Assembly: GCA_903923175.1 (NCBI GenBank)
Contig: CAIXWQ010000408.1
Location: forward strand, 1-34,361
Direction of reading: 5' to 3'
Source of the DNA: an uncultured delta proteobacterium
GTDB lineage: Bacteria; Myxococcota_A; Polyangia; Polyangiales; JADJMO01
Length of the DNA: 34,361 nt
Every line of letters starts with the position of its first letter. Position 1 is the stretch's first letter. The notes below the pieces were generated by a model that was not told where the DNA came from, did no database searches, and saw only the letters and a program-made list of their open reading frames with translations. A program made the translations under genes and the position numbers. Positions 26,894-33,745 of this stretch are shown piece after piece.

Positions 26894-28672
26894 ATGCCCA
26901 ACATGCCGCACGCAAACCCAATCTATGGAGCGTCCGAGGCGTTGAGGATCTCCAACCTCGCACAGACCCTCGACACCTCGACCGGACTTCCCACTCGCGT
27001 GACGTCTGGCCCGGTATACGCACGATGCTGGGGCGATTCTATCACCGAGTCCGTCTCGAACCCGATCGCTGGCAATCCAGGCTATCGCGGCACTCTCCAG
27101 CAGCTAGACCGCACGAGCGGCTACACGCTGCGGATGCTAGGCACTCGCCTAACTGGCTGGGTTCCCGCGAACGCCGCGAGCACGGGGCCCGCAACGTACG
27201 CTCCCGGGTCGTCGCGAAACGAGGGCGTCAGCGGCAACACCATCGAGCAGGTTACTGCTAGGGTGCCGCCCGCCATCGCGACGGAGCTTGCGCGTACGGG
27301 TCGCGTCGCTGACGTCGAGTTCGTCATGGCGGGGACCAACAACTTCGGCGCGGGCGACTCGAACGCGACGATGTGGACGAAGCTCCTCGCGCTCGTCGAC
27401 GCGATCCGAGCGGCCAACGCGACCGGGTGGATCGTTGTCTGCTCGGTGCCCGAGGTGCCTGCATACGCAGCGCTGCGAGCGTCGTACAACGCCGGCATCC
27501 AGGCGAACGTCACGGACCTGCGCGACGCGAAAGTGATCTACCTCGACACCTGCAGCGACTTCACCGACGCCGAGCAGGGCATCACCGCCGGCCCGACCGT
27601 CGATGGCCATCCGAGCCCGCGCGGTCACCAGACCATCGGCTCGCGCATGTACGATTGGTTCCGGTCGATCTACTCGTTGCCGGTCGGCAAGCCGTCTCCT
27701 CGGCCGTTCGTGGCGGGGCTCGCGGGCGGCAGCATCTCGATCACGGAGACGAACTCACAGGTCTACTGGCCGAGCAACCCCGCGACGCTCGCGACGCCGT
27801 TCTCGACGGCCGTTGCTGGGACCAAGCGGGTCCTCATGGGGATCAACTTCCTGCCGACGACGCTCAGCGCCGCGGCACGATCGATCTTCATGTACTCGGA
27901 CTATGGCGCGAACAAGGGCTTCATGGTCGCGGCAAACGCAGACGTTCTGAGCCTCTACATGCCGGGCTCAGGCGGTCCGTTCGCGAGCGGGTACGGCGTG
28001 CTCCGGCGCGGCCTTCGTCAGCGGATCTGGTTCCACTTCGACGACGCAGAGGGCGGGATCGGGACGCTGTTTGCGACGCCTGCGGGCCGCCCCGTCATCG
28101 TCGCTCAGGGCGTGTGCTCGTCGCTGCCGGTGTGGTCGAGCGGGACCGCCGCGGACTACCTGATCGTCGGCGCGGCGAGTGCGAGCATCCTCGCGTATCC
28201 CGGACTGTACGACTCGTTCGAATGCTGCGCGGGTAGCGCCGTCCCACATCTCGACGATCTGCTTCCGTGCTTGGAGGCGAACTACTTCGAGCACGCGGCG
28301 CTCCCCGGTCGCAAGGCGTACCTGCCGCTGAATGAGGGCACGGGCGCCGTGTCCGCCACGGCCGACGCGATGAACGGCACGAACATGGGCGCATCGGTAT
28401 TCGGCGCCGGCGCAGGGTGGGCGTTCCGGCCGAATCCGTGGGACGCGCTCGTCGGCGAGCAGAAGGGCACATTTGTCGTCAACGGCGCGACAGGCGTCGT
28501 CGTCCCGGTCGCCGGCATGGTCGCGGGCGACGAGGCCGACATTCAGATCACGCGCATCGCCACCGGCGGCACGCCTGGCGCGGTGCCGTACGTCGTCTGC
28601 GCGGCGGGTCAGTTCACGGCGACGGGCATCGCGGCGGACACCAGCACGTACGCGTGGCGCTGGCGACCGTGA
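26894..28672 (+). CDS. SGNH-hydrolase tail fibre/tailspike
   Basis: The 592-residue protein carries the blocks of an SGNH/GDSL hydrolase near its N-terminus. Block I is CWGDSITE with Ser49, block II is NEGVSGNTIEQV (G111/G114), block III is MAGTNNFG (G147, N149) and block V is DGHPSPRGH (D237, H239 or H245). Block V has one residue fewer than the usual D-x-x-H-P, so the exact catalytic Asp/His pair is uncertain. Residues ~260-592 are beta-rich with LPLNEGTGAVSATADAMNGT, a laminin-G/ConA-like strand motif. Such enzymes in fibres deacetylate or cleave surface polysaccharide. Third codon positions contain far more A/T than in neighbouring genes, a sign of recent acquisition. Confidence 0.8.
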   Translation: MPNMPHANPIYGASEALRISNLAQTLDTSTGLPTRVTSGPVYARCWGDSITESVSNPIAGNPGYRGTLQQLDRTSGYTLRMLGTRLTGWVPANAASTGPATYAPGSSRNEGVSGNTIEQVTARVPPAIATELARTGRVADVEFVMAGTNNFGAGDSNATMWTKLLALVDAIRAANATGWIVVCSVPEVPAYAALRASYNAGIQANVTDLRDAKVIYLDTCSDFTDAEQGITAGPTVDGHPSPRGHQTIGSRMYDWFRSIYSLPVGKPSPRPFVAGLAGGSISITETNSQVYWPSNPATLATPFSTAVAGTKRVLMGINFLPTTLSAAARSIFMYSDYGANKGFMVAANADVLSLYMPGSGGPFASGYGVLRRGLRQRIWFHFDDAEGGIGTLFATPAGRPVIVAQGVCSSLPVWSSGTAADYLIVGAASASILAYPGLYDSFECCAGSAVPHLDDLLPCLEANYFEHAALPGRKAYLPLNEGTGAVSATADAMNGTNMGASVFGAGAGWAFRPNPWDALVGEQKGTFVVNGATGVVVPVAGMVAGDEADIQITRIATGGTPGAVPYVVCAAGQFTATGIAADTSTYAWRWRP

Positions 28673-30015: not shown

Positions 30016-30699
30016 ATGCAGCTCGTCGACTCCGCTCGCGCGTTCATCGTCGCGCACCCGTACATCGTCCTCGCCTACTTCGTGACCTTCGTGACGTCGC
30101 TCGCCGTGCGCACGCTGCACGCCGCGAAGTTCGAGGCCTTCGAGAAGGAGCACCCGGTGGTCGGTGGCGCGCTGCACGTCGCGTTCGGGTTCCTGTCGAA
30201 CGCCGACCAGGTGCGGCGCGGCGCGGTGCTCATCCTCGGCGCGCTCGGCGTGAAGCTCCCCGACCCGAAGGCCGACGACCCCGACGAGCCGCCGACCGCG
30301 GGGGCCGTCAACACGTCGCGCCTCTTGCTGGCCGGCGCGACCGCGATGCTCGCGCTGTCGCTCACGACCGGCTGCGGCTCGATGCGTTTCGCCCCCCCGG
30401 TGTCCGCTGGCGGCGTTCCCGGCGCTGCGATCGAGGTGTCGACCCCGGAGCGCTGCTCGCAGCTCGACGACCGCCACACGACCTACGGCATCGTCGCGGC
30501 CGGCGCGGGCGCGGGCGCTGGCGTCACCGGCCTCGCCGCGGGGCTGTCGGCGAACGGGCGGCTCGGCCTCGGCATCGCTGCCTTGGCGGTCGGCATCGTC
30601 TCCGCCGCGACAGCCAAGGGCGCGCAGGACACCGCCGCGACGTTCGTCCGTGAGGGCTGCGGCTCGATGGCCGCGCAGCCGGCGAAGGCGAGCCGCTGA
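30016..30699 (+). CDS. multi-helix membrane protein, holin-like
   Basis: The 227-residue product is membrane-embedded. One segment is at ~12-31 (IVAHPYIVLAYFVTFVTSLAV), a weaker one is at ~69-80 (GAVLILGALGVK), a third is at ~102-119 and a Gly/Ala-rich pair is at ~158-200 (GIVAAGAGAGAGVTGLAAGL, LGIAALAVGIVSAATAKG). The third reads LLLAGATAMLALSLTTGC with Cys120 and looks exactly like a lipoprotein signal peptide, but it lies in the middle of the protein. It opens the cassette with the lipoprotein, cysteine peptidase and muramidase, so a holin role is likely. GGGAGAG precedes the ATG at 30016. Possible alternatives are a fusion of a holin domain with a lipoprotein, or an internal second product. 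Confidence 0.68.
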   Translation: MQLVDSARAFIVAHPYIVLAYFVTFVTSLAVRTLHAAKFEAFEKEHPVVGGALHVAFGFLSNADQVRRGAVLILGALGVKLPDPKADDPDEPPTAGAVNTSRLLLAGATAMLALSLTTGCGSMRFAPPVSAGGVPGAAIEVSTPERCSQLDDRHTTYGIVAAGAGAGAGVTGLAAGLSANGRLGLGIAALAVGIVSAATAKGAQDTAATFVREGCGSMAAQPAKASR

Positions 30700-31016
30700 T
30701 GCGCGCGTTCATCCACACCGCCTACGCGCTCGTGCTGGCGGCGACGCTCGCTGCGGGCGCGACGGTCGGCGTCTCGGCGTGCGCGCCGAAGTGCCAGGGC
30801 TGCGGCGTCGCGCACCCCGAGGAGCCCGTCACCGACGCCGAGGCCGTCACCGCCTGCACCGCGGCGGCAGCGAAGATGGACGAGCTGAAGTGCCGCGAGG
30901 CACGGCCGGACTACCGCGAGTGGTGCACGTACGAGATCGCCAACGGCGTGCCGTTGCGGCCCGTGTGCGTGTCGCACGTGACCGACTGCTCGCAGGTCGA
31001 CGGGGTGTGCCGATGA
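30699..31016 (+). CDS. Cys-rich lipoprotein, spanin candidate
   Basis: The 105-residue protein has a lipoprotein-type signal peptide (MRAFIHTAYALVLAATLAAG, then VGVSAC with Cys28). The mature part is short and cysteine-rich (CAPKCQGCG, then VTACTAAAAKMDELKCREA, WCTYEI, VCVSHVTDCSQVDGVC). It should be exported and held by disulfides. It overlaps the holin-like gene by one base (TGATG) and the peptidase gene by four (ATGA). Lysis-cassette lipoproteins of this size are often outer-membrane spanin subunits, but they seldom have so many cysteines. An alternative is an inhibitor or chaperone for the peptidase encoded immediately downstream. Confidence 0.7.
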   Translation: MRAFIHTAYALVLAATLAAGATVGVSACAPKCQGCGVAHPEEPVTDAEAVTACTAAAAKMDELKCREARPDYREWCTYEIANGVPLRPVCVSHVTDCSQVDGVCR

Positions 31017-31765
31017 CGATCAAGTGCGGGCATCGCGTCTCCGGCACCGATCGCATGGTCGCCGCGTTCGAGCGCTTCGGCGCGCGCGCGGCGCTCCAGG
31101 TCGTGCACGCGGGCGATCGCGTCGAACTCGAGGAGCGCACCCCGATCAAGGATCAGGGCCAGGCCGGCTCGTGCGTCGCGCACGCGGGCTGCACCTCGAT
31201 GGAGCACGTCATGGCGGCGCCCGTGCCGCTCGCGTGCCTCCAGGCCTACTACGACTGCCGCCTGCAGGTCGGCGAGCAGTGCGTCGACGAGGGGTCGTGG
31301 CCGCATGTGTTCGTGCAGGTCGCGAGCAACATCGGCGTGTGCACCGAGGCCGAGTACCCCTACGACCTCGACCAGCTGTTCACGCGCCCCACCGACTTCA
31401 GCTACCAGCGCGCCTACGATCACCGCGTCCTGACGGGCGTGGCGCTCGGCGCAGACTTCGACCCCGTCGACGACGTCGAGCGCTACGTCCGCGCGGACGT
31501 GAAGCCCTTCGGCGGCTGGCCCGTCGACGACGCGTTCCTCGGGTGGACCGGCGACGGCATCTACGACGGCCCGAGCGGACCGAGCCGCGGCGGCCACTCG
31601 ATGGCGGTCGCGGGGCTCGAGGTCCGCAGCGACGGCACCCGCGCGTTCAAGCTGCAGTCCTCGTGGCGGCGCTCGTTCGGCGCGAACGGGTACGTGTGGG
31701 TCTCGGAGAAGTTCTTCCGCCAGGGCAGCGACTTCGCGGCCTTCACGAAGATCGGGGCGCCGTAA
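31013..31765 (+). CDS. papain-like (C1) cysteine peptidase
   Basis: The 250-residue protein has the landmarks of family C1 peptidases. RTPIKDQGQAGSCVAHAG holds the oxyanion Gln (Q48) and nucleophile Cys54; EYPYDL resembles the common C1 YPY segment; GPSRGGHSMAVAGLEV holds His195; and FKLQSSWRRSFGANGYVWV is the last block. In papain this block reads NSW with catalytic-triad Asn; here that position is Ser216, an unusual change. There is no obvious signal peptide or propeptide, so the active enzyme would be made in the cytoplasm and released via the holin. Its place between a lipoprotein and the muramidase suggests a lysis or envelope-protein cleavage role, but defence or anti-host functions are possible. 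Confidence 0.83.
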   Translation: MTIKCGHRVSGTDRMVAAFERFGARAALQVVHAGDRVELEERTPIKDQGQAGSCVAHAGCTSMEHVMAAPVPLACLQAYYDCRLQVGEQCVDEGSWPHVFVQVASNIGVCTEAEYPYDLDQLFTRPTDFSYQRAYDHRVLTGVALGADFDPVDDVERYVRADVKPFGGWPVDDAFLGWTGDGIYDGPSGPSRGGHSMAVAGLEVRSDGTRAFKLQSSWRRSFGANGYVWVSEKFFRQGSDFAAFTKIGAP

Positions 31766-31766
31766 C

Positions 31767-32018
31767 ATGGCGCTCGCCTCGTCCGCCGCCTACGCGTGCC
31801 AGTTCGTCGCCGAGGCGTCCGACTTGCCGCACCTCGCGCGGTGCCTTCGGGCGCATCGCGATGTCGTAGCCGAGTCGGTGTGCGAGGTGCCCGAGAGTCA
31901 TCGCGTTTTCTACGGCCTCGACGAGCTGCTCGTGTCGCACGCCGAGGTAGCTGCCGCGGACCTGGCGGTGCGGATGGAACTCGGGCGCGTGGCGAGCGCG
32001 CATCGGTGGCCGGCATGA
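31767..32018 (+). CDS. hypothetical protein in lysis cassette (83 aa)
   Basis: I do not recognise this protein. It begins one base after the peptidase stop and its own stop overlaps the muramidase start as ATGA (32015-32018). It is small, helical and rich in Ala, Val, Leu and His (HLARCLRAHRDVVAESVCEV, DELLVSHAEVAAADLAVRME), with three cysteines and no membrane segment or signal peptide. Coupled translation with the muramidase suggests a regulatory or accessory role in lysis. Confidence 0.66.
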   Translation: MALASSAAYACQFVAEASDLPHLARCLRAHRDVVAESVCEVPESHRVFYGLDELLVSHAEVAAADLAVRMELGRVASAHRWPA

Positions 32019-32770
32019 GCCCGCCGCGCGACGACGCCGCCACGCTCGACCGCCGCATCCGGCCCCGCTGGCTCCGCGGCTTCGACGTGTCGAAGTTCCA
32101 GCTCGAGATCGACTTCGTCGCGGCGCGCGCGGGCGGCATCCGCTTCGGGTGGATCCGCGAGGGCGAGTCGACGTGGGGCACGCCCGACGATCGATGGCTC
32201 CAGAACTGGCCAGCCTGCCACGCGGCGGGCATCCCCTGCGGGCCGTACCACCCGGTGCACGGCGACGCGCCCGGCCGCGACCAGGCGCGCATCCTCCGCG
32301 ACCGGTGCAAGAACTGGGAGCACGGGCGCGACCTTCGCCCCGCGATCGACCTCGAGACCCGGGGCGGCGCGCCGCTGCACGAGGCCGAGGCGATGGCCGA
32401 GGAGACCGAGCTCCTCTTCGGCGTCGCCCCGATCCTCTACGTGGGGAAATGGTTCGCGCGGGAGATCGGGCTGACGCGCTCGTCGCCGCTCGCGAAGCTC
32501 CTGCTCTGGCTCCCCGCGTACGACACCGCCACGCCGGAACTCCCCGACGCGTGGGACCGCTGGCACGTCTGGCAGTATTCGGGCAACGGGCGCGCGCCCG
32601 GCGTGTCGACCGCGTGCGATCTGAACGTCGTGCGGACGCGCGCTGACCTCGACGAGATCCTCGACGTCTCCGCGATGGGCCCGGCCGAGACGATGCGGTC
32701 GCCGTCGCCAGACGTCGCCACCATCACCGAGGCCGAGCGCGCCGCGCGCGAGCTCGATGGGGTACCGTGA
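32015..32770 (+). CDS. endolysin, GH25 muramidase
   Basis: The protein (251 residues) has the glycoside hydrolase family 25 pattern. GFDVSKFQ near residues 22-29 has the first acidic residue D24, and AIDLET at ~110-115 has D112 and the expected proton donor E114. ILYVGKWFA, then LLLWLPAYD, and WHVWQYSGNGRAPGVS with CDLNV complete the barrel. GH25 enzymes cut the beta-1,4 bond between N-acetylmuramic acid and N-acetylglucosamine in peptidoglycan. No signal peptide is seen, so release depends on a holin. The C-terminal ~30 residues are a short extension and there is no separate cell-wall-binding domain. It overlaps the upstream gene by ATGA and the next by GTGA. Confidence 0.88.
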   Translation: MSPPRDDAATLDRRIRPRWLRGFDVSKFQLEIDFVAARAGGIRFGWIREGESTWGTPDDRWLQNWPACHAAGIPCGPYHPVHGDAPGRDQARILRDRCKNWEHGRDLRPAIDLETRGGAPLHEAEAMAEETELLFGVAPILYVGKWFAREIGLTRSSPLAKLLLWLPAYDTATPELPDAWDRWHVWQYSGNGRAPGVSTACDLNVVRTRADLDEILDVSAMGPAETMRSPSPDVATITEAERAARELDGVP

Positions 32771-33063
32771 AGCTCCGCCCCGTCACCGCCGACGACGGCG
32801 TCGAGCGCGTGCGCTTCGACTGCCCGGGATGCGAGTCCCCGCACGTGCTGCCCGTGACCGGCGCGCGCGCGTGGGGATTCAACGGCGACCACGCCGCGCC
32901 GACGTTCACGCCGTCGATCCTGATCACCTACACGGGCGAGGACGAAGGCTGTCCGGTGCGTGAGGTCTGCCACTCGTTCGTGACGCTCGGCCGCATACAG
33001 TTCCTCGGCGACTGCACCCACGCGCTCGCAGGGCTGACGGTCGACCTGCCGGAGGTCCCGTGA
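32767..33063 (+). CDS. DUF6527-like zinc-binding protein
   Basis: The 98-residue protein starts at GTG 32767 inside the muramidase end. It shows FDCPGCESPH (C19, C22), WGFNGDHAAPTFTPSILI, VCHSFVTLGRIQFLGDCTH (C68, H69, C83, H85) and ALAGLTVDLPE. This matches the DUF6527 family, small proteins of phages and prophages that probably bind a metal through the C-x-x-C and CH positions. The family has no established function and is often mislabelled in databases. It is commonly encoded beside endolysin genes, as here. Confidence 0.8.
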   Translation: MKLRPVTADDGVERVRFDCPGCESPHVLPVTGARAWGFNGDHAAPTFTPSILITYTGEDEGCPVREVCHSFVTLGRIQFLGDCTHALAGLTVDLPEVP

Positions 33064-33275
33064 GACCCGATCCTCGCGCCGAGCCCGACGACGCTCCCGA
33101 CACGCTCCCCGCGCCGCCGCCCGTGCACCCGCGCCACGCGCTCCCGCCGCCGGCGCCGTCGAGGGGGCCCGTCACGCGTCCGAGCTCGCCGCGCGCCCTC
33201 CGCATCGCCGACATCCTCGCGGAGGGCCGGCGCGCCGCCGGGCTGCCCGAGGAGCCAACGCCCGAGGAGCCCTGA
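33060..33275 (+). CDS. small Pro-rich protein (71 aa)
   Basis: Starts at a GTG overlapping the previous stop (GTGA, 33060-33063) and ends by TGATG overlap with the next gene (33273-33277). The N-terminal two thirds are Pro/Ala/Arg-rich and probably disordered. The C-terminus has a helix (LRIADILAEGRRAAGLPEE). No function is recognisable. The tight overlaps support a real gene, although low complexity makes it less certain than its neighbours. Confidence 0.5.
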   Translation: MRPDPRAEPDDAPDTLPAPPPVHPRHALPPPAPSRGPVTRPSSPRALRIADILAEGRRAAGLPEEPTPEEP

Positions 33276-33661
33276 TGCCTGCGCTTGCGACACCTCCCCC
33301 GCTCCGTCTGCTCTCCCCGCTCCCGCCGCCGCAGTCCGACCCGCCGCCGCAGTCCACCGTTCGACCCACCACGCCGGCAGTACTGCCGGAGGGGATCCTC
33401 TCTGTGAGCGACACCGCGCAGATCTACGACCTGCTGACGAAGATGGACGGCAAGCTCGACGGGATGCGCGACGAGCTCGCGAGCGTCGACAAGGGCCAGG
33501 CCATCCTCGAATCGTGGAAGGTCCGGCACGACACCGAGGTCACGCCCGACGTCGAACGCCGGTTGCGAACGCTGGAGGGTGATCGCGCGCGCATGATCGC
33601 GATCGCGGGCGCCATCGGCGCGCTCGCCGGATGGCTCGGCCCACGCCTGTTCGGACACTGA
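33275..33661 (+). CDS. membrane-anchored coiled-coil protein (XhlA-like)
   Basis: The longest form has 128 residues. The first ~40 are Pro-rich. The core (~46-100) is a coiled coil (QIYDLLTKMDGKLDGMRDEL, VERRLRTLEGDRAR). It ends in one membrane helix at ~105-124 (MIAIAGAIGALAGWLGPRLF). This order, helix bundle then C-terminal anchor, is that of haemolysin XhlA-type proteins, which help holins or anchor lysis complexes. An in-frame GTG at 33404 has a strong site, GGAGGGG (33388-33394), and would give an 85-residue protein lacking the Pro-rich part. ATG 33275 also has AGGAG upstream, so two forms are possible. It is the last plus-strand gene before the terminator. Confidence 0.66.
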   Translation: MPALATPPPLRLLSPLPPPQSDPPPQSTVRPTTPAVLPEGILSVSDTAQIYDLLTKMDGKLDGMRDELASVDKGQAILESWKVRHDTEVTPDVERRLRTLEGDRARMIAIAGAIGALAGWLGPRLFGH

Positions 33662-33690
33662 TCGTCCGCGGCGATCTGAAGCCCGCCAAC

Positions 33691-33736
33691 GAAGACGCCC
33701 CCGCCTCGCAAGAGGTCGGGGGCGCTTCGTCGTTTT
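33691..33736 (+). terminator. strong intrinsic terminator of the late operon
   Basis: A long stem is formed by GAAG-A-CGCCCCCG-CCTC (33691-33707) and GAGG-T-CGGGGGCG-CTTC (33712-33728) with a GCAA tetraloop at 33708-33711, followed by GTCGTTTT. It ends the plus-strand late genes and faces the convergent minus-strand genes. The run of seven GC pairs next to a GNRA loop and the T-run make this the strongest terminator in the window. It may work in both directions. Confidence 0.85.
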
Positions 33737-33745
33737 GTGGCTCGC

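Follow-up and report, generated by a model that had tools for sequence, protein, structure and literature searches.

The window analysed here is the whole of contig C408 (34,361 bp, 70% GC), one of 1,422 contigs in a 10.7-Mb assembly, and it carries genes for the portal, head protease, tail sheath, tape measure, baseplate and lipase-like fibre of a contractile-tail phage. An RNA ligase homologue is encoded at 831-1829 (phrog_968, E 1.9e-39), and a protein of the fibre region with a lipase-like domain at 26894-28672 (phrog_6102). Omp85 proteins are encoded in the assembly, and the presumed host therefore has an outer membrane, in keeping with the Gram-negative host named by an earlier, sequence-only reading of this DNA.

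A gene run around a papain-like peptidase

Between 30016 and 33661 all genes lie on the + strand and mostly overlap by 1-4 bases, and a strong hairpin follows the last of them. The features of this run are:

30016..30699, +, predicted holin-like transmembrane (TM) segment fused to an internal lipobox (LALSLTTGC) and more hydrophobic stretches (sequence, hydropathy); no Pfam or PHROG match
30699..31016, +, Cys-rich lipoprotein, 105 aa, lipobox ..VGVSAC (HMM and reciprocal search)
31013..31765, +, C1A (xylellain-type) papain-like cysteine peptidase, 250 aa (Pfam, AlphaFold2, Foldseek)
31767..32018, +, 83-aa protein, no family match (Pfam, PHROG), kept in the sister phage
32015..32770, +, GH25 muramidase, the endolysin (PF01183, 72 bits; phrog_291 endolysin, 2.8e-22)
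32767..33063, +, DUF6527 protein (PF20137, 41.9 bits)
33060..33275, +, proline-rich ORF, 71 aa, no Pfam or PHROG match
33275..33661, +, coiled-coil protein with a C-terminal TM segment, weak unknown PHROGs, no Pfam match
33696..33740, +, G+C-rich hairpin followed by a U-rich stretch (folding of 33655-33745, z = -4.3 against shuffles)

The hairpin is likely the terminator of the run. The stop codon of the lipoprotein gene (TGA, 31014-31016) overlaps the peptidase ATG at 31013 by 4 nt, and a single small gene, that of the 83-aa protein, separates the peptidase from the muramidase. Translational coupling of the peptidase to an upstream Cys-rich lipoprotein, one intervening small gene and a lysis-type neighbourhood had all been proposed before, and all are found here. 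The muralytic endolysin of a phage lysis cassette is present as the GH25 enzyme, and holin-like TM segments occur in the products of both 30016-30699 and 33275-33661, neither of which has a family match; the holin-like role of the first is putative and read from architecture, as is, with hydropathy, the XhlA/holin-like label of the second. Analogous fusions lie directly upstream of the peptidase gene at loci L296 (2503-3096) and L297 (2563-3111). No i-spanin-like partner was seen in 30016-33661 and no product matched an Rz/Rz1 PHROG, so that a two-component spanin is not recognisable here although a lipoprotein is present.

A sister contig of 62 kb from IMG/VR (L010) keeps the gene order through the muramidase gene at 86% identity. 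The 83-aa gene has a dN/dS of 0.11 between the two phages. In the TM/lipobox gene (5043-5681 in L010) the lipobox-bearing C-terminal half is conserved and the N-terminal half differs, as if holins had been swapped. Within the run, DNA similarity to sequenced phages (Rhizobium, Pseudomonas and others) is limited to the DUF6527 gene.

The peptidase and its altered triad

The peptidase frame, from the ATG at 31013 to a TAA at 31763-31765, was recovered where the sequence-only reading had placed it. The profile search which that reading had called for matched PF00112 (Peptidase_C1) over residues 43-232 with 46.1 bits (cut-off 20.7) and bore out the assignment to the C1-type papain-like peptidases. 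Structure prediction likewise shows the papain fold that had been claimed: the AlphaFold2 model has a mean pLDDT of 96.6 (66 aligned sequences), and the top solved structure in a Foldseek search is xylellain (3ois, TM 0.74-0.76), with many cathepsins also matching. Furthermore, the profile of the C1 family covers 3ois over its full length (E 1.6e-87). The ORF is thus confirmed as a genuine, xylellain-type member of the C1A papain family.

Its conserved blocks read DQGQAGSC(54)VAHA, GGH(195)SMAVAG and LQS(216)SWRRSFGANGY. Gln48 corresponds to the oxyanion Gln of papain, and Gln48, Cys54 and His195 are invariant among homologues. Fold, profile and these three residues are common to the window peptidase and the short bacterial C1A peptidases represented by xylellain of Xylella fastidiosa (PDB 3OIS), an enzyme whose substrate is unknown (PMC12090721); the window protein differs from xylellain in having Ser for the triad Asn and in sitting in a phage lysis-type run with lipoproteins. 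No signal peptide or propeptide is obvious in its sequence, and it has no tail or head domain.

The Ser that had been noticed at the expected Asn position is Ser216. Among the 240 homologues with a letter at the third-triad column, Asn occurs in 237, Ser in two (the window phage and its sister) and Gly in one (L050), in a collection for which one IMG/VR scan pattern admitted only N or S at this column and a second, independent pattern also supplied loci. The Gly-bearing homologue (L050, 5953-6774) is also paired with the lipoprotein. Family C1A has Asn as its third catalytic residue and the window protein does not; we regard it as a C1A variant with an altered triad, a placement by homology that does not imply activity. 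Ser216 is probably the third residue of a putative Cys-His-Ser triad. Ser occupies this position in other papain-like enzymes, namely the peptidoglycan amidase Tae3, RavD and vasohibin (PMC10318531), which belong to other families of the superfamily; within this C1 type it is confined, among the 240 homologues, to the two phages named. The change from Asn to Ser could reduce activity. A pseudogene or decayed enzyme is nevertheless unlikely: dN/dS between the window and its sister is 0.31, near the 0.29 of the GH25 gene, and the peptidase gene is therefore functional and under purifying selection, with all other catalytic residues kept.

The sequence-only reading had supposed that phage lysis cassettes do not normally contain papain-like proteases, a view that the literature does not support. 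C1A xylellain-type peptidases of Caudoviricetes, acquired horizontally by myo- and siphophages, are already published (PMC10380794); they are of the same type as the window peptidase, and the part of that account considered here mentions neither a lysis context nor a lipoprotein partner. Additionally, the lysis module of the Leptospira TA-TA prophage contains a predicted cysteine protease, called a putative endolysin, beside a holin/antiholin pair (PMC8705779). The window phage and this prophage each have a predicted cysteine protease in a lysis-type module, a likeness of description rather than of compared protease families; unlike the window, the Leptospira module is described with no mention of a GH25 enzyme or a Cys-rich lipoprotein. 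In view of these published genes, the window peptidase does not represent a novel type of enzyme.

A Cys-rich lipoprotein adjoining the peptidase

Relatives of the Cys-rich lipoprotein were found at 17 loci, and a C1 gene adjoins in every confirmed case (about 16 besides the window). The association is reciprocal. Six of the Cys-rich lipoproteins adjoining C1 genes served to build an HMM, which was run on 17,098 ORFs of 248 loci, and its significant further matches, all outside the training set, lay solely beside C1 genes (L180, L184 and L062). A search by the lipoprotein alone returned nine loci, five of them new, with C1 adjoining in 9/9. The HMM also matches L245, a phage contig of a genome in the host's order, in which the C1 stop and the lipoprotein start overlap by four bases, and two more pairs come from host-order genomes (L309 and L310), with C1 cut off at the contig end in both; these three prophage-like contigs carry the pair within the order of the host. 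At L295 the two genes are separated by about 0.44 kb. A weak fourth genome match (G370, E 1.5e-5), where there is no C1, looks spurious.

An overlap of one or four bases joins the pair genes in 10 of the 15 untruncated cases. The lipoprotein gene comes first in the window, L010 and L011, and the C1 gene comes first in the remaining loci. On a quick tree with some long branches, the lipoprotein-paired C1s group together (two changes, against a shuffled mean of 8.7). Sequenced phages and plasmids yielded no relative of the lipoprotein, and sequenced plasmids no relative of C1.

C1 relatives occur in 30 of the 379 sampled genomes of the host phylum, and at loci L269-L288 their frames span about 340-690 aa, with C-terminal extensions and without a lipoprotein partner. 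Host-genome copies were considered as relatives of the pair and rejected, the 20 host-phylum genes encoding long, C-terminally extended proteins with no such lipoprotein nearby; among the C1 forms compared with them, only the short, phage-like ones carry the lipoprotein. Our literature search, limited to open-licence papers, found no account of the pair, and it is the lipoprotein partner, rather than the peptidase, that looks new.

The lipoprotein model has a mean pLDDT of 73, rising to about 90 in a helical Cys-rich domain, and Foldseek matched it to no known fold. The small helical domain, predicted to be disulfide-rich, recalls enzyme-inhibitor pairs, as do the obligate pairing and the coupled translation, and the lipoprotein might be an inhibitor or immunity partner that shields the envelope until lysis, rather than an anchor. 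We consider this highly improbable, as the fold matches no known inhibitor and the mature domain would be periplasmic while the peptidase would stay in the cytoplasm until lysis.

Genomic context and a possible role in lysis

Phages of Gram-negative hosts must get through the inner membrane, the peptidoglycan and the outer membrane. The outer-membrane step is known chiefly from spanins, and many phages, especially those of poorly studied hosts, have no recognisable ones.

The pair frequently lies in a lysis context, and the muralytic enzyme near it belongs to several families: GH25 in the window and L010, Amidase_2 in L050 and L290, SLT in L065 and Glucosaminidase in L309. At L296, where a weak lysozyme-like match lies nearby, most of the window's cassette is present, comprising a TM/lipobox fusion, C1, the lipoprotein, DUF6527 (PF20137, 35.3 bits) and the lysozyme-like gene. 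L310 has a lysozyme-like ORF judged by eye and confirmed by no library, and L245, L295 and L297 have only holin-like TM genes near the pair. The pair is constant while the family of the glycan-cutting enzyme varies, and it therefore most likely performs a step other than glycan cutting.

About six of the 17 loci (L011, L033, L062, L180, L184 and L291) have the pair away from any recognisable lysis gene. At three of them (L033, L180 and L291) an integrase is close by, which would accord with an accessory gene that is expressed independently, and at L011 the pair belongs to a jumbo phage. These stand-alone units on the + strand beside an integrase, together with the jumbo-phage case, would suit the main rival to a lytic role, in which an envelope lipoprotein and a peptidase form a lysogenic-conversion or superinfection-exclusion cassette that changes or strips off a surface receptor or keeps a second phage out, and that in some phages came to lie near lysis genes by chance shuffling of modules. 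Phage lipoproteins often exclude superinfection, a general precedent for such a cassette. We nonetheless judge it unlikely: in the window, L010, L050, L065, L290, L296 and L309 the pair is part of a late-type run together with genes for muralytic and holin-like products, and the peptidase, which has no export signal, would depend on a holin for access to the envelope.

Among phages at large the IMG/VR scan gave at least 230 confirmed C1 relatives. Of 130 distinct IMG/VR loci, 56 have a small TM gene no more than three genes from C1, where random genes taken from those loci give 35.9 +/- 3.1; a lipoprotein is the immediate neighbour in eight, compared with 1.2 expected, by a strict lipobox rule that missed some lipoproteins. 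Of the 17 contigs that bear a lysin, 8 have it within 4 kb of C1, where 3.4 are expected (P 0.006); without the sister phage L010 the figures are 7 observed and 3.2 expected (P 0.02). In about half of these contigs the lysin is far off. On these neighbour counts the C1 family leans to lysis regions and is not confined there. The idea that C1 relatives always occupy lysis cassettes accordingly finds no support, given both the lysin distances and the stand-alone pairs. GH25 is not the usual partner either: the co-occurrence survey that the earlier reading had called for found it in 3/50 contigs, which rules it out as a fixed partner. Wide PHROGs/Pfam tallies were too diffuse (terminase, portal, methylase) to single out one neighbour family, and the targeted TM, lipoprotein and lysin tests were needed. 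In Streptomyces phage Sycamore (L093, 4668-5300) C1 lies within a tRNA array, far from lysis genes.

The C1 genes of jumbo phages and of several IMG/VR contigs are found among DNA-metabolism or structural genes, and tail-fibre genes are immediately upstream in the window, as might be expected of a virion or injected protease, or of a cytoplasmic host-takeover protease unrelated to lysis. Such a function is very unlikely in view of the conserved lipoprotein coupling, the holin-like neighbours and the fact that the protein has neither a tail nor a head domain.

The link of C1 to lysis is supported more broadly than the sequence-only reading knew. Besides the pair's position beside several muralytic families, C1 directly follows the GH25 endolysin in Thermoanaerobacterium phage THSA-485A, and an annotated 753-aa endolysin of Alicyclobacillus phage MMB025 (L090, 5923-8184) unites C1, an Rv2525c glycoside-hydrolase-like domain and PG_binding_1. 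In MW202426 a distance of 2 kb separates C1 from the genes for XhlA and endolysin. Both the THSA-485A adjacency and the MMB025 fusion would also accord with a second endolysin, in which C1 would hydrolyse the peptide bonds within peptidoglycan, like the NlpC/P60 and CHAP domains that share its fold, and so would the putative-endolysin label of the Leptospira protease (PMC8705779) and the Cys-His-Ser triad of the amidase Tae3 (PMC10318531). This is distinctly unlikely, however, since in sequence and fold the peptidase is nearest to the proteases xylellain and cathepsins rather than to NlpC/P60 or CHAP, several kinds of muralytic enzyme are already there, and the lipoprotein partner would be left unexplained.

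The reading that we prefer, and consider about evenly poised between right and wrong, is that a holin-released peptidase and outer-membrane lipoproteins open the Gram-negative envelope, helping or replacing spanins; its localisation, complex, substrate and timing are what we infer. The C1 peptidase and the Cys-rich lipoprotein would form a conserved functional unit, to which many phages may add a second lipoprotein or a holin-lipoprotein fusion upstream. Having no signal peptide, the peptidase would gather in the cytoplasm like the GH25 enzyme and pass into the periplasm once the holin had breached the inner membrane. The lipoprotein would be exported by Sec, probably sorted to the outer membrane, and would there hold the peptidase or aim it. 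The pair could then sever links made of protein, for example outer-membrane proteins or peptidoglycan-tied lipoproteins, while the muramidase cuts glycan, and would serve as an enzymatic helper of spanins or as their substitute. Two-component spanins (Rz/Rz1) likewise place a small outer-membrane lipoprotein in lysis cassettes of phages of Gram-negative hosts; the partner in the window is instead an enzyme, and neither an i-spanin architecture nor a membrane-fusion design was seen.

More tentatively, and with doubt outweighing confidence, the pair may represent a new class of phage lysis factor, a proteolytic system of two components that depends on a holin. In phages whose Gram-negative hosts have large genomes it would replace spanins by cutting proteins that belong to the outer membrane or are linked to the wall, and this lineage would carry a Cys-His-Ser variant of it. 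If so, a protease-lipoprotein pair that moves with varied muralytic enzymes would be a concrete candidate for the missing outer-membrane step, and would provide a function for some of the xylellain-type peptidases that are widespread in phage genomes.
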